From Rosettibacter firmus (GTDB taxonomy: Bacteria; Bacteroidota; Ignavibacteria; Ignavibacteriales; Melioribacteraceae), in NCBI RefSeq assembly GCF_036860695.1, contig NZ_JAYKGJ010000001.1, forward strand, positions 124,001-188,000: DNA of 64,000 nt, given 5' to 3'. Below the pieces are notes generated by a model. It saw nothing but the letters and a program-made list of their open reading frames with translations, did not search any database and had not been told where the DNA came from. The translations under genes were made by a program, and so were the position numbers. Below are positions 5,667 through 56,947 of the stretch, piece by piece. Numbering within the stretch: the first letter of the stretch is position 1; the number at the start of each line of letters is the position of its first letter.

Positions 5667-7499
5667 TTATCGAACGGTTTCTAAATCTTCGGTGAATTTC
5701 TTGATTTGTTCTTCGGCTTCAATACTTAATTTGGCTTTCTCGGTTTCTTTTTCTTCCTTCAATTTTTCTATCCTTTTTTGATGTTGCATTATATTGGCAT
5801 TAATATTACTTACTACCGCTTTTTCTTTTTCTCTCCAGTATTCTTCTGTATCTTTTATTGCCTGTTCTTTTTGATTTTTTAATGAATTAATTCTTTTAAT
5901 AAGTTTATTTTTTTCATCCGCTCTGTCTATTAATACAAGACCAGCAATAATTACTGAGATAATTAGTCCTACAAGAAAACTTATAAATCCCCATTTTAAT
6001 CCAGCTAAAAGCACAAATCCCAATATTGAATTAAATTCAGAAGTATCGGTAACTAATTTATTTGAATAACTTGCAAGTCCACCTATTAAAAAAACAAACA
6101 TAGCTATAATCGTGTTATTCATCATATTTACTGAAAATGATTTTGCAGGACTAAATTTTTCAAGATATGGTAATTGAGCAATTCGCTCTTCCAAACTTTT
6201 TATTTCGTTCTCATAACTTTCTTTAATATTCTTAATTGATTTTTCAAGATTTTCCTGTGCATTAATTTTATAACTATCTAACTCAGTTCTTAACTTCTCT
6301 ATTTCTGCAGAATATTCATTTATGTATTGATCATATTGTACTAATTTTGCTTCTATTTCTTCATATACCAATTTTTTCATTTGTTCGATAATTAAATCAA
6401 TAGTAAAATTATATTTTCTTTCAAATTCAGGATACATCGCAATTATTAGTGTATTTGAAGAATTCAGGTATCCTTCTGTTAGTTTCTCAAGTAAGTTGAT
6501 GCTTTTAGTTACATCATCAGTAAAATAATTCTTAACAGGTTTTTCTTTTAATAAAGTAATTTTATGAGCAATTTTACTGAGAAAATTTTCTTCAGCCAAT
6601 CTATATGGTTTTAAAACATTCCCGATTAAGTAATATGCAGGTGCAAAATCTTTTTCATAAAATATATTATTTACAAATGCATTTAATAAAAAGTAATTGA
6701 ACATTCCAAAATTATTTAAATCGAGTGCTACTAATAATCTATGCAGATCATAAGCCATAATTTCTTTTATAAAATAAGATGCTACTTCATCATTCCCCAT
6801 TTTAAATTCAGTTAATGCAATATAAAATTTTGCAGTAGTCCCACTGGATTTTATATCAACTGCTTCTTTGAAACTTTGATTTGCTTTTATATAATCTTTC
6901 TCTTTTAAATAAACAAAACCAGTAAATAAATTTACGATGTAATTCAATTCTTTCTTAACGCTATCAGATAATCTTAGAGTATTAACTAATTCTTTGACAT
7001 TTTCATATAGACTAATTGCCTTTGCTGGATTATAAAAACTATTATGATATGTAAGCAAAATAGCATGTATTAAATGCTTGAAGAAATTATGCTTGTAAAC
7101 ATCTCTTTCAATAAAATTTATAGTAAGATTAGCATAATATTCTTTTTCACTTCTTAATTTTGTTGTTACCCATTTAGCATAATTTTCTTTGATTGATTTA
7201 TGAAGATCAAGATATTTTACTTTTGAAAAATTTACTTTCATAAATTCTTCAATTTGACTTAAAAGCCATGAATCATAAATCCAGTAGACAGGTGCATTTG
7301 CAAAAGGAATAAAAATTTCTTTTAGTTCTTCTGGCAAATCGAATGAAAGAATTTTTATATTCTCTTTTATATTTGTTATATAATCAAACTCTCCAGGTAT
7401 GTTTAAGTCGAAATGCTCTTTCCCCAATTTATAAAAATTGGTTAAAGCATTTTCACTTCCTTTAACTGTTAGATTATTATTTATGTATTGACCAATCAT
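5667..7499 (-). CDS. TPR-like / coiled-coil membrane protein of unknown function
   Basis: Not recognised as a named family. The 610 residues begin with an all-helical cytoplasmic-looking region that includes a TPR-like pair at about 190-240. A charged coiled coil spans about 370-445, followed by two membrane segments (about 458-480 and 492-524) and a second long coiled coil from 526 to the C-terminus. The two-helix hairpin with coiled coils on both sides suggests a scaffold or tether with most mass on one face of the inner membrane. It lies 12 bases after the PAS kinase and ends the long flagellar run, so it may belong to that regulatory cassette. Confidence 0.75.
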   Translation of the reverse strand: MIGQYINNNLTVKGSENALTNFYKLGKEHFDLNIPGEFDYITNIKENIKILSFDLPEELKEIFIPFANAPVYWIYDSWLLSQIEEFMKVNFSKVKYLDLHKSIKENYAKWVTTKLRSEKEYYANLTINFIERDVYKHNFFKHLIHAILLTYHNSFYNPAKAISLYENVKELVNTLRLSDSVKKELNYIVNLFTGFVYLKEKDYIKANQSFKEAVDIKSSGTTAKFYIALTEFKMGNDEVASYFIKEIMAYDLHRLLVALDLNNFGMFNYFLLNAFVNNIFYEKDFAPAYYLIGNVLKPYRLAEENFLSKIAHKITLLKEKPVKNYFTDDVTKSINLLEKLTEGYLNSSNTLIIAMYPEFERKYNFTIDLIIEQMKKLVYEEIEAKLVQYDQYINEYSAEIEKLRTELDSYKINAQENLEKSIKNIKESYENEIKSLEERIAQLPYLEKFSPAKSFSVNMMNNTIIAMFVFLIGGLASYSNKLVTDTSEFNSILGFVLLAGLKWGFISFLVGLIISVIIAGLVLIDRADEKNKLIKRINSLKNQKEQAIKDTEEYWREKEKAVVSNINANIMQHQKRIEKLKEEKETEKAKLSIEAEEQIKKFTEDLETVR

Positions 7500-7511
7500 T
7501 TTAATATAGCT

Positions 7512-9365
7512 TTACATTTTAAATCTTGGGAAAGAGATAATAATTTCTGTCCCTTTATTTTTTTCACTTTGAATTCTAAAATCTCCACCCATCAGCTTTG
7601 TTAATTTATATGCTATTGTTAAACCAAGACCAATACCTTCATATGGTCGAGTATATCCTTCAATTTCTTGACTGAATGGGAGTAAAATTCTATCTATTTG
7701 TGAACTTTCTATTCCAATTCCAGAATCTGCAACAATAATTTCTACTTTATCTTTGTTAATTCTTGAACCAAGATAGACAAAACCAGATTTAGTATATTTA
7801 ATTGCATTATCAATTAACACATCAATTATTTTTTCTAATTTAATCCAATCGATTTCAATAAATGCTTCTTCTTCATAAAGTTCTAATTTGAAAGTTAGAT
7901 TCTTTTTCTCTGCTTCGTTTAATCTTTTTTCGAATACCTGTCTAATAACCTGATTACAATTTAGAACAACCATTTCAAGTTCAACTTCGTCGGATTCAAT
8001 CTGCGACAACTCAACAATATTAGTAAAAGCATTCAATACTCTTCCAAGAACTTCTTTTACAGAATCCATAATTTCTTTTAATGCCACATAATCTTTTGCT
8101 GCAAGACAATCATCTATAATTTCTGAATAACCAATAATTCCATTAAAAGGTGTTCTAATTTCGTGTGATATGTTGGCAATAAAAGCAGATTTCATTTTAT
8201 TAAGTTGAATCTCTTTCAAATAATTTTTTTCAAGTTGTTCTCTGTATTTAGTTTCGTCTGTTACATCTTTTAATGTTATAATGAATATTTTACTGTTATT
8301 CCCATTTAAATTTGCGGATGTAATCTTACAATTAAAATGTTGGCCAGATGAATGATGATAAAAAAATTGTTGAAATGACTCGTCATTATTCTCAAGAATT
8401 TTAATATTTTGTTCGATCAGGTCATATAATTGTGGTGGCAAAAAATCATTAACCAGTTGCAGATAAATTTTAGATTTTTCCAGATTAAATAGTTTACAAA
8501 AATTATCGTTTGCATTTTCAAAATATATTTTGTTGTCGAAAGATTTTAATATTAATAACAGGTCAGAAATATTTTCTATGATTAATTTTTGTTTCTTTTC
8601 TGATTCTTCAATTACTTTTTTCTGAAAAACATGTTCGGTTAAATTATTAGCACTGAGAACAAAATTAATTTCATTTGAATTTATTGGATAAAATGGCTGT
8701 AGATTAAAATCCCAATATTGATATTCTCCCCTCTTTTTTATTTCTACAAGTTGCTTCCATACTTTCCCATTATTTAAAGAAAAACTAAAATTATCCAGAT
8801 CATTTTGATTAAGATATTCTTTCATGACTTCTAAAATTTCAGCATTAAACAATTTTTCTAATCCACGAGAAAATATTTCTTCAAATGAGCTGGTTGCATA
8901 AACAATCTTTCTTTGATTATTTATTATAATTATTGGCACACGACCATAATCAAGTGCATGATGTAGTGAATCAATTTTTTTCTCGATAATTTTTCTTTGC
9001 TCAAGAGATTCAACAGTAATTAATAAATACTGATTATATGATATAATGATTCTCTCAATACCTATCTGATATAAAGTATCGGTGGATGTATAATTCGATG
9101 AAATAGAAAGATCAGCTAAAAGATTTTTGTATTTACTTTCAATAAATCCTTTCACAAAAACTAAAAATTCTGAACCGGGGTTTAGTCTATTTAAATTATC
9201 TTTAACCTTTAGCTTAAAAATATCTGTGAATGTATTATTGCAAAATATAATATCTAATGAAGGAGATACGATTGCCAGAGCTCTGATGTTGGGCAGTTCT
9301 TTATAATTAAAAAATTCCTCGTCGGAATTTTTTAGTGTATTATGAAAATTTATCCAGCTAGACAT
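7512..9365 (-). CDS. Soluble multi-PAS sensor histidine kinase
   Basis: About 617 residues, no membrane segment. Three PAS-like regions lie near residues 25-120, 135-245 and 260-375 (for example IISYNQYLLI, IIIINNQRKIVYATSSF, LKSFDNKIYFENANDNF). The HisKA motif FIANISHEIRTPFNGIIGYSE has its His near residue 401, and the ATPase domain shows LIDNAIKYTKSG, VADSGIGIESSQ and GIGLGLTIAYKL. All kinase boxes look intact. The ATG at 9365 is preferred to a TTG at 9377 that would overlap the previous gene. It follows two receiver proteins and may be the kinase that feeds them. Confidence 0.85.
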   Translation of the reverse strand: MSSWINFHNTLKNSDEEFFNYKELPNIRALAIVSPSLDIIFCNNTFTDIFKLKVKDNLNRLNPGSEFLVFVKGFIESKYKNLLADLSISSNYTSTDTLYQIGIERIIISYNQYLLITVESLEQRKIIEKKIDSLHHALDYGRVPIIIINNQRKIVYATSSFEEIFSRGLEKLFNAEILEVMKEYLNQNDLDNFSFSLNNGKVWKQLVEIKKRGEYQYWDFNLQPFYPINSNEINFVLSANNLTEHVFQKKVIEESEKKQKLIIENISDLLLILKSFDNKIYFENANDNFCKLFNLEKSKIYLQLVNDFLPPQLYDLIEQNIKILENNDESFQQFFYHHSSGQHFNCKITSANLNGNNSKIFIITLKDVTDETKYREQLEKNYLKEIQLNKMKSAFIANISHEIRTPFNGIIGYSEIIDDCLAAKDYVALKEIMDSVKEVLGRVLNAFTNIVELSQIESDEVELEMVVLNCNQVIRQVFEKRLNEAEKKNLTFKLELYEEEAFIEIDWIKLEKIIDVLIDNAIKYTKSGFVYLGSRINKDKVEIIVADSGIGIESSQIDRILLPFSQEIEGYTRPYEGIGLGLTIAYKLTKLMGGDFRIQSEKNKGTEIIISFPRFKM

Positions 9366-9373
9366 AATCAATT

Positions 9374-10024
9374 TCAACTTATATGTATACTTTTTATTAT
9401 TAAACCATCTTGTTCACCTCTGAATTCTCCATCCTGTATATGATGAAAATTCAGTTTTATAGAAATGTACTTATCTAAAAATTTAATCATGCAATTATTG
9501 ATGTAATTAATTTCTTTTTCTATTGTGCCAACAAACTCTCTGGATAATGAATCAATCGTATGCTGATCTGTTATAACATTAGGTTTTTTTACACTAAGAG
9601 ATTTAAACTGTTCGAAAAACTCTTTCAGTGCATTTAAATCTTTTTCTAAATTATTTTCTAAATCCAATTTAATTGGAGCAGAAAGAGTTACAATAACAAC
9701 TATTTCTGCAGCATAACCTTGAATATCTTTCTTAATCTTATATTCAATAATTTTATTCTTGCTTAATTCATTTATATGAATTGTAGTATCAAATTCAAAA
9801 TCATCTAATTCAAAAATGATGTGTATTTTGTCAGACTGTTGATTAAATTTTTTTAATTTCCATCCATAAGTTGATAGAAGTGCAGTGGCAGGAGAAATTA
9901 AGATTGAATCGTTAATTGAATTCGAGGCGTAAGTATATGAATTTACTTTTTTGTAATATTTTGTATTCCCGGTAGACTTTTTATAGTCTGAATTTGGGCT
10001 AATATTTACAATTTTTTCCAACAT
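9374..10024 (-). CDS. Hypothetical protein with occluded ribosome binding site
   Basis: 216 residues, not recognised. It starts MLEKIVNISPNSDYKK, is rich in Asn, Lys and Ile, has no membrane segment, and alternates beta strands (residues about 60-115) with a helical C-terminal half. It sits between a receiver/DHp protein and a PAS kinase, so an adaptor role in signalling is possible but unproven. The strong ribosome binding site GGAGGAGAAGG is fully paired in an upstream hairpin (10024-10060) that even includes the A of the start codon. No alternative ATG follows near the N-terminus. Confidence 0.72.
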   Translation of the reverse strand: MLEKIVNISPNSDYKKSTGNTKYYKKVNSYTYASNSINDSILISPATALLSTYGWKLKKFNQQSDKIHIIFELDDFEFDTTIHINELSKNKIIEYKIKKDIQGYAAEIVVIVTLSAPIKLDLENNLEKDLNALKEFFEQFKSLSVKKPNVITDQHTIDSLSREFVGTIEKEINYINNCMIKFLDKYISIKLNFHHIQDGEFRGEQDGLIIKSIHIS

Positions 10025-10060
10025 GCCTTCTCCTCCGATTTATTATCGAAGGAAAAGGCA
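10024..10060 (-). promoter_or_regulatory. RNA hairpin sequestering the ribosome binding site
   Basis: In the minus-strand transcript, positions 10060-10045 pair with 10039-10024 in an unbroken 16-bp helix (14 Watson-Crick, 2 G-U) around the loop AAUAA. The 3' arm contains GGAGGAGAAGG and the A of the AUG at 10024. Eight A residues precede the helix and no U-run follows, so it is not a minus-strand terminator. Translation of the gene at 9374-10024 would need the helix to be opened by a protein, an RNA, a ribosome or temperature. Confidence 0.75.
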
Positions 10061-10073
10061 TTTTTTTTAATTT

Positions 10074-10727
10074 TTAATCGGTTTTAATCATACGGTTTTC
10101 ATCAACATAATCAATTAGCTGAGGATTTTGCAAATAAATTAATTGTTGCACAAATTTATTTATACGGTCAACAGATTCATTAATAGTTTTAAGTTCTTCG
10201 GAAAGTTTTGCTCTTTCTTCTTCACTTAATTCATTTTCGATAGTTTTTAGAGATAATACAAGACTGCTTAACGGATTATTAATTTTATGACCAATTGTAC
10301 AAGCCATTTCTATGACTGCTTTATTATGTTCTGCATTTTTAAGTTCGTTTTGAAGGTTAAAAATGCGAATACCTGAACGAATTCTTGCAAGAAGTTCTTG
10401 ATTTTCTACAGGCTTAACAAGGAAATCATCTGCTCCAATATCCAATCCCATTATTCTATCTTTCAATGAAGAACGTGCTGTAAGAATAATAAAATAAATT
10501 CCTTTATATTTTTCATCGCTCTTTAAAATATTGCAAAGAGCCAATCCATCGAGAACTGGCATAGTCCAATCTGCAAGAATTACTTTTGGTGAAAAAGTTT
10601 TCAATATTTCGAGTGCATCCTCTCCGTTAATAGCGGTTACTACTTCATAATTATTTCTTGTTAGTAATTTTTCGAGGATGAACCTTGTATCTTTTTCATC
10701 TTCAACAACTAATATTTTATCTTTCAT
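10074..10727 (-). CDS. Receiver domain fused to a lone DHp (HisKA-like) domain
   Basis: Residues 1-120 are a receiver: VEDEKDTR acidic pocket, ILADWTMPV with phospho-acceptor Asp53, ILTAR, and FLVKPVE with the conserved Lys. Residues about 135-205 form a helical hairpin with IGHKINNPLSSLVLSL, a histidine-kinase H-box with His147, but the chain ends before any ATPase domain. It may pass phosphate between receivers or dimerise with a full kinase. It overlaps the previous receiver gene by 11 bases and is followed by the hairpin-controlled gene. Confidence 0.82.
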   Translation of the reverse strand: MKDKILVVEDEKDTRFILEKLLTRNNYEVVTAINGEDALEILKTFSPKVILADWTMPVLDGLALCNILKSDEKYKGIYFIILTARSSLKDRIMGLDIGADDFLVKPVENQELLARIRSGIRIFNLQNELKNAEHNKAVIEMACTIGHKINNPLSSLVLSLKTIENELSEEERAKLSEELKTINESVDRINKFVQQLIYLQNPQLIDYVDENRMIKTD

Positions 10728-25799: not shown

Positions 25800-26669
25800 T
25801 CAATTTAGTGATTCAAAATGCCATTTAAATAAATCTTCATAACTTGAAATAAATTCTTCAAGATATTCAAAACTGCCAAATCCAAGAATATCAATGATAT
25901 TTTCATCAAGCTCGTAACCTGTATCCCACGAAAAATTTCCATAACCTAATTTATTGGTCATATAATCAACAAGATGAATTAGTGAAGCAAGTACAGGATT
26001 TTTTTCAGCAAGAGATGGTTTATGATGTTTTACAATAGCTTCAACTATGTAAGGTGGAAAGTTCCATTTTTCAAGTAAATATTCTGCTATATCTCCATGA
26101 TTATATCCAAGTACAATTTTTTCTGCTTCGTAATATGATATGCCTTCGTTCTTAACAAGTTTAACTATTTTTTTAAAATCATAGTTTAAGTATTTATATA
26201 AAATTACCAGACCAAGATCATGTAATAATCCAACCGTAAAAACTTCACCAGATCTTGGATATTTAAGGTCATCAGCAATTCTCTTAGCTGCAGTTGCAAC
26301 CATTAATGAATGAGCCCAGTATTCATTATGATTCCAATCTGGAGATTTTCTAACTTTAAGTGCATCTAAAAGTGAAATAGCAAGTAAGATATTACGTATG
26401 TGTTCAAAGCCTATTATTACAATTGCAAATTCGATTGTAGCCACTCTTCTTGGTAAACCATAAAGTGGTGAATTTGCAACTGCTAATATTTTTGTTGCCA
26501 GTGCCTGGTCTTTTGAAATAACTTTGCACAAATCTGAAGCACTGGTTTTTTCGTCATCGAGTAATTGAGTTACTTCGGCAACAATATGTGGAATAGCTGG
26601 AAGATTACCAATACCCGAAAGTTGTTTCCTGATTTTTTCTTTAATATCTAAAGTCGTCTGATCAAACAT
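25800..26669 (-). CDS. HDOD-domain signalling protein (copy 2)
   Basis: 289 residues, same architecture as the neighbour: GNLPAIPHIVAEVTQLL, SKDQALATKILAVANSPLYG, IEFAIVIIGFEHIRNIL and VGLLHDLGLVILYKYL. The two align over their whole length, including a C-terminal ISxYxD/E-type tail, so they arose by tandem duplication. It overlaps fliA by 8 bases, implying translation coupled to the flagellar sigma factor. Confidence 0.88.
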   Translation of the reverse strand: MFDQTTLDIKEKIRKQLSGIGNLPAIPHIVAEVTQLLDDEKTSASDLCKVISKDQALATKILAVANSPLYGLPRRVATIEFAIVIIGFEHIRNILLAISLLDALKVRKSPDWNHNEYWAHSLMVATAAKRIADDLKYPRSGEVFTVGLLHDLGLVILYKYLNYDFKKIVKLVKNEGISYYEAEKIVLGYNHGDIAEYLLEKWNFPPYIVEAIVKHHKPSLAEKNPVLASLIHLVDYMTNKLGYGNFSWDTGYELDENIIDILGFGSFEYLEEFISSYEDLFKWHFESLN

Positions 26670-27288
26670 TATACAAAGCCAGCTTTTGTTTTAATGTTTT
26701 AATTATTTTAGAATGAAGCTGAGAAACACGAGATACAGTTATATTCAAAACTTTAGCAATTTCCTGATAGTTTAGTTCTTCATAATAGTAAAGACTTAAT
26801 AATGTTCTATCTCGATCATTCAATTCTTTAATTAGTTGAATTAATTTTTCTTTGATTTCATTATTCTCCAGAATTTCATTGGGATTAGCACTTTCATCGG
26901 AAATCATCTCATACATTTGCATACCTTCTTCTTCGATAAAAGTGTTGTTAAGTGAAATTGTTGTTCCTATAGATGAATTACCATCTTCACATGCCATTTC
27001 ATATCTATGTGTATATTTTCTTATTTCATCATAAATTTTACCACGAATTCTCTGAATAGCATATGTTTCGAACTTTGTTCCATAATCAGGATCAAATCTA
27101 TCTATTGCTTCGCTTAGCCCTTCAATCCCGAACTGAAAAAAATCTCTTCTATCAAAAATTTCATTCTGATTAAAATTTGTTTTATGAATTACATAATGCA
27201 CAAGATTAATGTAATTAAGTATGATCTGCTTTTTTAGTTCAGGCGTGGGTTTGGCTTTAAATTTTGCCCAAAGTTCTTGATTATTCAT
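26662..27288 (-). CDS. fliA: Flagellar sigma factor FliA (sigma-28)
   Basis: 208 residues. DRRDFFQFGIEGLSEAIDRF and YAIQRIRGKIYDEIRKY are sigma region 2 (core and -10 recognition), and region 4 has RDRTLLSLYYYEELNYQEIA and VSRVSQLHSKIIKTL (helix-turn-helix). Region 3 is short, as in FliA. It should direct late genes such as flagellin, which are outside this window. No FlgM anti-sigma factor is recognised here. It overlaps the small membrane protein gene by 8 bases. Confidence 0.92.
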   Translation of the reverse strand: MNNQELWAKFKAKPTPELKKQIILNYINLVHYVIHKTNFNQNEIFDRRDFFQFGIEGLSEAIDRFDPDYGTKFETYAIQRIRGKIYDEIRKYTHRYEMACEDGNSSIGTTISLNNTFIEEEGMQMYEMISDESANPNEILENNEIKEKLIQLIKELNDRDRTLLSLYYYEELNYQEIAKVLNITVSRVSQLHSKIIKTLKQKLALYNV

Positions 27289-36213: not shown

Positions 36214-36768
36214 TTATTGTAAAATATACTTACTGAAATAAACGTTATTAATTTTTACATCTGGAATTAATTGAGTAATCTTTTGAGAAATTTCCATTCG
36301 TAAAGTATCACGATATAATGCATCGCTAAGGTGTGTCATATCCTTACTACTCAATACTGAAATTACAGCATCTTTAACGAGCACTTCTTTTTCTTTTAGC
36401 TCTTTTTGATTTTGATCTGTGAGAAGGTCGAAGCCAATGGAAGTAAGTAAAAGTCGTTTACCATCTGTTCCGGCTGGGTTTATTATTAAATCTTCAACAA
36501 CATACACATACTTACCGAGTTCAAGATGTTTAATTGAATCGTTCGCATTGGCTTCGCCATTCTCTACGGAATCTACAGCCACAGAAGAGGTATGTGATTG
36601 AATTTTTGGCAATAGAATGTTTGCTGTAATAAAATAAACAGCAATTAACTGGATTATAAAAAGAGGTAATCCGATTAAAAGTATTTTTGCATTGAATCCT
36701 TTTGAACCGGATTCTTTGACTCTCTCTTCTGCCTGTTCAGCAATATTTTGATTTTTTTCCTGTTCCAT
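36214..36768 (-). CDS. fliL: Flagellar basal body protein FliL
   Basis: 184 residues: a short cytoplasmic N-terminus, one membrane helix (about 29-50, ILLIGLPLFIIQLIAVYFI) and a periplasmic stomatin-like domain with YVVEDLIINPAGTDGKRLLL and INNVYFSKYILQ at the C-terminus. It supports the stators. First gene of its operon. No ribosome binding site precedes the ATG, and the predicted transcript would start only about 4 bases upstream, so the message may be leaderless. Confidence 0.92.
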   Translation of the reverse strand: MEQEKNQNIAEQAEERVKESGSKGFNAKILLIGLPLFIIQLIAVYFITANILLPKIQSHTSSVAVDSVENGEANANDSIKHLELGKYVYVVEDLIINPAGTDGKRLLLTSIGFDLLTDQNQKELKEKEVLVKDAVISVLSSKDMTHLSDALYRDTLRMEISQKITQLIPDVKINNVYFSKYILQ

Positions 36769-36946: not shown

Positions 36947-39064
36947 TTATCTTATCAAATTAGTAATCTCCTGCAACATTGTATCTGCAGTTGTAATTAC
37001 TCTTGCATTAGCCTGGAATCCTCTCTGAGAAATAATCATTCTTGTAAATTCTTCTGATAAATCTACATTTGATTGCTCAAGTGCACCGGATTGAATTGTA
37101 GTAACAGAATTTTCTCCAGGAGCATCAATTCTTGGATCGCCACTGTTTGCAGCTACGTTATACATATTATCACCTACACTAACCAGTGCATTTAAGTTTT
37201 TGAAAGTAGCAACCATAATTTGAGCAAGTTTAAGAGAATTACCATTGGAGAAAATTCCAATTATATTTCCATATTGATCAATATTTAAATTAGATAATGC
37301 TGCAGATGCAGATCCATTTTGCGATAATGCAGCTATTTGTGATGATAAGTTAGTTTGTGTAACACCTGCTGTGCCCTTACCAAAATCTAAATCAATTACC
37401 TGTACTTCTGCACCAGTAGCAGGAGTGAATGTAATCTGTGGAGTTGGTGGTGTAGTTGTTACCTGATTTCCTGCTTGCCATATACTTTGAATCTGTCCAT
37501 TAGCATCGAAATAAATTTCACCAAATGCATTTGGACTTAATGTACCACTTGTTGTTGGAACCGATACAGTCCAGCTCCATCTGTTATTGTCAATATGTTC
37601 GAATTTAATAGAAAGAGTATGTGAGTTACCTAATGAATCGAATATTGTTACTGCACCTAATACTGGCTCAGGAATTTCTCCTTTATCTACACGACTGATT
37701 GGATTGGTGGTTGCATTGAGATTTGTTAAAGAATTTAGATTAATCTTAAAATCAAGTTTATTAGCTGAATTTGAGAAATTAATATTAATTGCTGAAGTAC
37801 CTTCAATTCCGGTTAATAAACCTGTAATATTATCAAAAGATAATTTTATTTTTCCATCATTACTGTCTGCATCATTACTTGCAGTATTTTCATTATTAAC
37901 TAAAATTCCATCATTATCAAATACCTTATAATAATAATACCAATCAGAACCATCAAATTCATAGTAGTTTACTAAATAAAAATCTTTCCCATCCTTACTG
38001 TAAATTTTATTTCCTGTAATTGGTTGAATTGTTCTATCAATATTAGAACTTCCAGCTAAGTTTGTTATTTCTGTTAAGTCTATTTTAAATTTTAAATCAG
38101 GAAAATCTGGGTTTGTATCTGCATCACTACCATCATACAAACCAATGTCAACTATGTCAGTACCGTCAAAATCTATAGTTTCAGTTTTATCATTAGCTGA
38201 TGATATTGAACTCTGCGAAGAGTTATAAACTTGATATTTCAACTCCCATTTACTAGAAACTGTATTGAATTCATATTTATAATACAAATAATAAGGTTGA
38301 TTTTTATTATCATAAACTACCATTTCTTTATAACCATCAACAATATCTGGATCCCCGGAACTCGGATTTGGATAAGGTGTTGTGGTATCTGAACTACTTA
38401 AGTTACCAAACATTTTCAAATTATATGTATAACCATCCTCAGGATATTTTGAACCTGTTGGAGCAGTATTACTTAAATTACCAACCAGATCTACAACATC
38501 AGTCCTAATTGTAGGAGAACTACTCTGAAGGTTGCCACCCCAGGATACATTTGTTGTTTTAACTGCTGGCAGTCTCATATTTTTATCAATTACAATATCC
38601 TGCAATGTAGTTCCTGGAGGAATTTCGCCCAATCCATTTGCAATTTTACCCTGAACAACTGCGCCATTCTGTGGATTTACAAGTTTACCATCTGCATCAA
38701 AAATAAAAGCACCTGCACGAGAATAAAGCTGCTGACCATTACTTTTCAAAATAAATAAACCAGGACCCTGCAATGCTAAATCTGTTGTAATTCCAGTTCT
38801 TTCAAATGTGCCCTGATTCCAGTTACGATCAATTGAATTGATCTTGGTACCCAATCCAATTTGAAATGAATTTGTTCCACCAGATGAAGCAGTTGGATTT
38901 GTACCAGCTTTTACGAATTGATTGAAAGTATCACTAAATGTAACACGAGAACCTTTGTAACCAATTGTGTTAACATTAGAGATGTTGTTACCAATTACAT
39001 CCATCATTGATTGATGATTACGAAGACCGGACACTCCGGCAAAGAGTGAATTTAGAAGTGCCAT
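36947..39064 (-). CDS. flgE: Flagellar hook protein FlgE, enlarged
   Basis: 705 residues, far longer than enteric FlgE (about 400). Ends are typical: MALLNSLFAGVSGLRNHQSM with NNISNVNTIGYKGSRVTFSD, and GALEQSNVDLSEEFTRMII near the C-terminus. The extra length is in the middle, where three related FlaE-like beta units follow each other (about residues 245-337, 350-451 and 468-573), each with a Tyr/Trp-rich strand pair and a closing D/N-L-T-N/E stretch. AAGGAGG lies 7 bases before the ATG, after a structured leader (39086-39140). Confidence 0.95.
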   Translation of the reverse strand: MALLNSLFAGVSGLRNHQSMMDVIGNNISNVNTIGYKGSRVTFSDTFNQFVKAGTNPTASSGGTNSFQIGLGTKINSIDRNWNQGTFERTGITTDLALQGPGLFILKSNGQQLYSRAGAFIFDADGKLVNPQNGAVVQGKIANGLGEIPPGTTLQDIVIDKNMRLPAVKTTNVSWGGNLQSSSPTIRTDVVDLVGNLSNTAPTGSKYPEDGYTYNLKMFGNLSSSDTTTPYPNPSSGDPDIVDGYKEMVVYDNKNQPYYLYYKYEFNTVSSKWELKYQVYNSSQSSISSANDKTETIDFDGTDIVDIGLYDGSDADTNPDFPDLKFKIDLTEITNLAGSSNIDRTIQPITGNKIYSKDGKDFYLVNYYEFDGSDWYYYYKVFDNDGILVNNENTASNDADSNDGKIKLSFDNITGLLTGIEGTSAININFSNSANKLDFKINLNSLTNLNATTNPISRVDKGEIPEPVLGAVTIFDSLGNSHTLSIKFEHIDNNRWSWTVSVPTTSGTLSPNAFGEIYFDANGQIQSIWQAGNQVTTTPPTPQITFTPATGAEVQVIDLDFGKGTAGVTQTNLSSQIAALSQNGSASAALSNLNIDQYGNIIGIFSNGNSLKLAQIMVATFKNLNALVSVGDNMYNVAANSGDPRIDAPGENSVTTIQSGALEQSNVDLSEEFTRMIISQRGFQANARVITTADTMLQEITNLIR

Positions 39065-56753: not shown

Positions 56754-56947
56754 GATGATAATAATCATCCACTTTGATTATCGAAAAGTTATTAAAAACA
56801 TTTAGCTTTGATTGATTATATTTCACTCAAAAAATTTAAGATAATGATATTTTTATTAAATAAAATTGAATTCACTCCGATAATACATAAGGGAATAATG
56901 TTTTTATGGAAAGTAATACTTATTTTAAAAATTAAATTCTATTAATA

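Follow-up and report, generated by a model that had tools for sequence, protein, structure and literature searches.

A sigma-28 (FliA) promoter is probably nested within the hairpin that covers the start site of a 216-aa protein gene in the window, the 64,000-nucleotide stretch of the Rosettibacter firmus genome analysed here, and the promoter from which an mRNA originates would decide whether that mRNA is translated. A probability of about 0.78 is assigned to this reading. The spacer and -10 element of the promoter would form the 5' arm and loop of the hairpin, and the leader bearing the Shine-Dalgarno (SD) sequence would form the 3' arm. A read-through mRNA of the upstream flagellar/response-regulator operon would carry both arms and fold, hiding the SD sequence and the AUG. 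At the late flagellar stage, when FliA is free, transcription would start about 11 nt before the AUG, yielding an mRNA without the 5' arm and with the SD sequence open. Before the sigma-28 stage, two layers of control would then keep the gene switched off, and probably also the kinase and the 610-aa protein encoded downstream. Sequence evidence covers the helix, its covariation, the bias towards the sense strand, and the promoter motif together with its conserved position, and this evidence gives good support to the promoter and to the covarying helix alike.

Table 1. Features at and around the start-site hairpin, in window coordinates
Feature	Position	Strand	Basis
Gene, 216 aa, of a family conserved in Ignavibacteriales	9374..10024	-	ORF, homologues
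Hairpin 5' arm, doubling as promoter spacer	10045..10061	-	fold
Hairpin loop AATAA, 5 nt	10040..10044	-	fold
Hairpin 3' arm, with SD sequence and A and U of AUG	10023..10039	-	fold
SD sequence GGAGGAG	10030..10036	-	sequence
Sigma-28 (FliA) -35 element TAAAAAAA, TAAA core	10062..10069	-	leader alignment, profile, pattern match
Sigma-28 -10 element TTCGATAA (CGATAA 10048-10043), in top of 5' arm and loop	10043..10050	-	leader conservation
Predicted sigma-28 transcript start, ~10035, 7 nt past the -10 element	10033..10037	-	predicted from spacing
Upstream gene, receiver + HisKA domain protein, putative source of read-through	10074..10727	-	stop 49 nt before start codon
PAS histidine kinase downstream, overlapping the stop of the 216-aa gene; probably on the same class-3 transcript	7512..9377	-	
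610-aa protein downstream, no significant family match; probably on the same transcript	5667..7499	-	
FliA/WhiG-type sigma factor, same flagellar cluster	26662..27288	-	TIGR02479, 2.4e-44, 151.7 bits (below the curated cut-off of 189.6)

An earlier, sequence-only reading of this DNA had described an unbroken 16-bp hairpin whose 3' arm contains the whole SD sequence and the first base of the AUG. The helix is unbroken as described but one pair longer, with the minus strand pairing 10061-10045 to 10039-10023 in 17 bp (15 Watson-Crick and two G-U); the whole SD sequence lies in the 3' arm, and the AUG contributes more than had been claimed, both its A and its U. Region 10110-9990 has a minimum free energy of -32.1 kcal/mol (z -6.3), a stability that no sequence among 200 dinucleotide shuffles reaches. 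Among 50 genes of the window, the folding energy of this start region (-26.7) is by far the lowest, the median being -3.6 and the next value -11.6, and the cost of opening the SD sequence and AUG (24.6 kcal/mol, median 5.6) is the highest. The runner-up in start-site folding, with its leader just upstream of 36768, is the gene at 36214..36768 (-) (-11.6 kcal/mol, opening cost 15.0), which follows a flgE-like gene at 36947..39064 and appears FliL-like by eye.

Overlapping the 5' arm and loop of the hairpin is the sigma-28 promoter TAAA-N17-CGATAA at 10069-10043 (-), found at C1:134043-134069 by pattern matching on the contig and overlooked by the sequence-only reading. Among 53 homologous leaders (duplicates dropped), CGATAA or CGATTA is kept 20-38 nt before the start codon in 48, and within these CGAT is present in every one, CGATAATA is near-invariant and the last CGATAA base usually lies 19 nt before the start codon. 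The best-kept letters of the leaders are those of CGATAATA, with TAAA 17 nt upstream, and not those of the helix. A gap-free alignment of 23 equally spaced leaders shows no change in the T of TAAA, in any letter of CGATAAT or in the ATG, and has A6 and A7 at 90% or more. The sigma-28 consensus is TAAAGTTT-N11-GCCGATAA, and it is matched by the profile over the 48 leaders, TAAAnTTT-N11-nnCGATAATA. Genome-wide, TAAA-N16-18-CGATAA counts are no higher than those of a reversed control and the motif alone is weak; identification of the promoter thus rests on conservation, position and the genes preceded. The same TAAA-N17-CGATAA pattern also precedes a flagellin gene and a FlgM-like gene in this genome, there without a hairpin. 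No comparable helix was found at the other sigma-28 promoters of the genome, whose leaders are generally ~50 nt or more (one is 28 nt), in a hunt for further hairpin-nested sigma-28 promoters that covered the window and about 15 genomic matches. Divergent sigma-28-like motifs were also seen at 56778-56804 (-) and 56857-56883 (+), in the intergenic region at 56.8 kb, where they separate a HEAT-repeat gene at the head of a chemotaxis run from a gene for a PAS histidine kinase.

We infer the exact transcript start, by the general rule for spacing between the -10 element and the start of sigma-28 promoters, and also that a read-through mRNA exists and how strongly its translation is silenced. The predicted sigma-28 5' UTR is ~11 nt at this locus and 10-13 nt in 41 of the 48 leaders. 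The predicted sigma-28 mRNA would carry the SD sequence at its 5' end and nothing of the 5' arm, so that only read-through mRNA from upstream could fold; since the hairpin would be possible only in that mRNA, promoter choice is most likely what acts as the switch. The sequence-only reading had named a start of the transcript downstream of 10060 as evidence against its own proposal, and such a start (~10035) is in fact predicted for the sigma-28 mRNA. Upstream genes on the same strand are separated by short gaps or overlap, and no terminator-like site was seen on the minus strand from 10 kb to 20 kb in the window. Opening the SD sequence and AUG is computed to cost 24.6 kcal/mol in the read-through mRNA versus 2.9 in the sigma-28 mRNA, and over the 48 leaders the median cost is 11.3 for the long RNA versus 2.9 for the short. 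These lower costs of sigma-28 mRNAs arise in part because the RNAs are short, as the medians for window genes also fall when shortened alike, though only from 5.6 to 2.5.

Compensatory change in the leaders of relatives, proposed earlier as a check on the helix, is found across Melioribacteraceae/Ignavibacteriales both by arm swaps and by pair counts. Native arms fold at a mean of -11.6 kcal/mol versus about -7.7 (SD 0.4) for arms swapped between species (z -9.8). With leaders restricted to those less than 75, 65 and 60% alike (32, 22 and 19 leaders) z is -8.2, -6.4 and -6.1, the last set of representatives giving -9.2 for native versus -5.5 for swapped arms. In the unselected gap-free alignment, double-changed cells number 27 versus 15.2 in shuffles (0 of 500 as high), and the covariation score is reached by no shuffle and is at its maximum at the true register. 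Two other measures, 'pairs with a change on both sides' and 'further types', were not above their values in shuffles. RNAalifold, run on all 23 unselected gap-free leaders, returned no common structure, because several leaders are without the helix and others have slipped in register.

The sequence-only reading had suggested a translational switch opened by protein, RNA or temperature. Such a classical switch, in which the helix of an mRNA with both arms is opened by temperature, by a protein such as CsrA, or by an sRNA or metabolite, would agree with the burial of the SD sequence and AUG, with the covariation, which indicates a real RNA structure, and with csrA and a fliW-like gene about 3.5 kb upstream, yet it is judged unlikely. 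Among relatives the helix strength spans about -9 to -27 kcal/mol, a range too wide for any melting point to be conserved. CsrA prefers GGA in a loop, whereas here GGA is paired in the stem and the loop is AATAA. The invariant letters of the leader are those of the sigma-28 promoter, which is found elsewhere without a hairpin; sigma-28 accounts for the conserved letters and, these aside, no conserved unpaired motif of the kind expected for a ligand is present. A search of Rfam with the leader gave no match, to an RNA thermometer, a riboswitch or any other described family, with E up to 1. An opening by protein, RNA or temperature lacks support and is not required by the favoured reading, promoter choice.

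A DNA palindrome that overlaps the sigma-28 -10 element and serves a dimeric regulator as operator is held to be very unlikely. The inverted repeat does overlap the promoter, and covariation taken alone fits an operator too, the swap test on the antisense strand giving z -7.8. The arm letters, however, vary freely among relatives, unlike those of an operator, the centre slips by register, and the repeat extends exactly over the SD sequence and AUG. Also against an operator, the sense strand folds beyond what composition gives. Sense folding is better than antisense in 38 of the 44 leaders that differ, and of the 31 leaders at -9 kcal/mol or below, 30 fold better as sense RNA and none as antisense. 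The excess is partly compositional (chimera mean -3.1 versus native -4.6 kcal/mol), and the sense excess that remains over swapped arms is significant when tested on representatives (p 0.002-0.01). Both G-U pairs turn into A-C on the plus strand, as claimed in the sequence-only reading, and its argument from them for function on the sense strand is borne out in this weaker but tested form. The leader comparisons support a functional RNA structure by which the sense transcript conceals its start site.

A terminator or attenuator, in either direction, has only a very slight chance of being the explanation: the plus strand reads the hairpin and then TTTTTTTT (T8, 10062-10069), but two pairs are A-C on that strand and it carries no gene ending at this site, the T-run is not conserved in relatives (L003, L006) and can be put down to the A-rich -35 region, and on the minus strand the helix is followed by ATGTTGGAAAAA, with no T-run. 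Equally remote is a functionless by-product, a pyrimidine-rich promoter spacer facing a purine-rich SD sequence by chance; swapped arms do pair somewhat (the mean of about -7.7 given above), but native pairing beats swapped by about 10 SD, and by about 6 SD in distant representatives, and leaders L015, L020, L030 and L073 have greatly differing arms that pair solely, or almost so, with their own partner.

The helix is less widespread than the promoter. About one third of the leaders keep the promoter with the helix weak or absent (e.g. L011, L013, L018, L019, L024), and the helix is thus not essential everywhere. It is stronger where the upstream gene ends at most 62 nt away (median -14.1 versus -5.3, p 1e-4, without correction for kinship and confounded with kinship and SD strength), as expected if the helix guards against read-through. 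In L060 and L070, whose upstream stop lies 10-21 nt ahead of the start codon, neither a sigma-28 motif nor such a helix was seen; L017, with a gap of 142 nt, has no motif at the corresponding place.

Promoters within start-site hairpins are known from phage T4, in which the stem's 5' strand in genes e, soc, 49 and I-TevI contains a late promoter; early and middle read-through mRNA has its SD sequence and AUG paired, and late mRNA lacks the 5' strand and is translated (PMC3014915, PMC2988022). The arrangement has been shown experimentally for e and I-TevI, the hairpin of gene e lowering lysozyme synthesis about 100-fold, and this control is also described for I-TevII/III, segB and Aeh1 mobE (PMC3014915, PMC2988022). 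As in T4, the SD sequence and AUG of the R. firmus gene would be paired in the long transcript and the 5' strand holds a promoter specific to one stage, both here as predicted from sequence. Unlike T4, the locus is on a bacterial chromosome, is served by flagellar sigma-28 instead of gp55, shows covarying conservation across an order, and belongs to a flagellar cluster and not to a lysis or endonuclease gene. The locus has the sequence features of the T4 promoter-in-hairpin genes and, by analogy, would work like them. Fold-back inhibition of read-through transposase mRNA is known for IS10/IS50. There, too, a read-through mRNA hides its own SD sequence in an inverted repeat, but at the end of an element and not at an alternative sigma promoter, and with no expression hierarchy. 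For flgM of Salmonella, 80% of transcription comes from the class-3 promoter (PMC13344023). It is one of the flagellar genes with both a class-2 and a sigma-28 class-3 promoter and so, as proposed for the 216-aa gene, can be transcribed in two ways, as part of an early operon or from the sigma-28 promoter; unlike at this locus, the literature examined describes no start-site hairpin that would silence its early mRNA. Searches of the open literature brought up no bacterial flagellar promoter with a hairpin-silenced read-through transcript, an absence that is not proof.

Late promoters nested in longer operons are common in bacterial transcript maps, and read-through is usually assumed to express the nested gene. 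The locus offers a simple and apparently conserved block on such expression, in which the spacer of the late promoter would be used as the anti-SD strand. The trick is known from T4 and would here be conserved across an order of bacteria. It is likely that an alternative-sigma promoter in a covarying start-site hairpin forms a stable chromosomal module across that order, in which the promoter of origin and not the amount of mRNA decides translation, and which would insulate a late flagellar cassette from the early operon surrounding it. If so, the signature, a hairpin that spans SD sequence and AUG and encloses the -10 element of an alternative sigma factor, could be searched for in other regulons, and the family of the 216-aa protein would be marked as one that has to be kept back until flagellar assembly reaches the sigma-28 stage.

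Homologues of the 216-aa protein occur in 57 of 97 related genomes, among them Melioribacter and metagenome-assembled genomes of Melioribacteraceae and Ignavibacteriales; a 16S rRNA search of the genome sequence found none. The 22 aligned homologues share M1, L2, I8, D39, S44, P45, W55 and F71, and since they are alike from residue 1, with M1 and L2 invariant, the start codon is supported. The order of genes is kept in relatives, running from motor-type proteins through a receiver protein and the receiver-HisKA protein to the 216-aa gene, the PAS kinase and the 610-aa protein, and the earlier placement of the gene between two-component genes agrees with its neighbours, the receiver-HisKA gene upstream and the PAS histidine kinase gene downstream. 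The upstream protein (10074..10727, -) is a receiver fused to a HisKA-type phospho-acceptor without an ATPase domain, kept beside the 216-aa gene across the order, and is possibly a phosphotransfer protein.

The description of the gene as unknown also stands, with no Pfam or NCBIfam match of the 216-aa protein above cut-off. Its AlphaFold model (pLDDT 73) has residues 1-42 disordered, followed by a folded domain. Foldseek gave no match to the model at E up to 0.001, and the best VIA-align Z, 5.5, to p32/Mam33-like proteins, is within the tool's stated noise. A profile match to the viral polyprotein chain 6h3x (E 1e-4) is weak and was taken as chance. The protein could be an export substrate or a regulator of the late flagellar stage. 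A (N)D(S)-x-SPA motif, also conserved in the family, looks by eye like the start of FlgM-like proteins.
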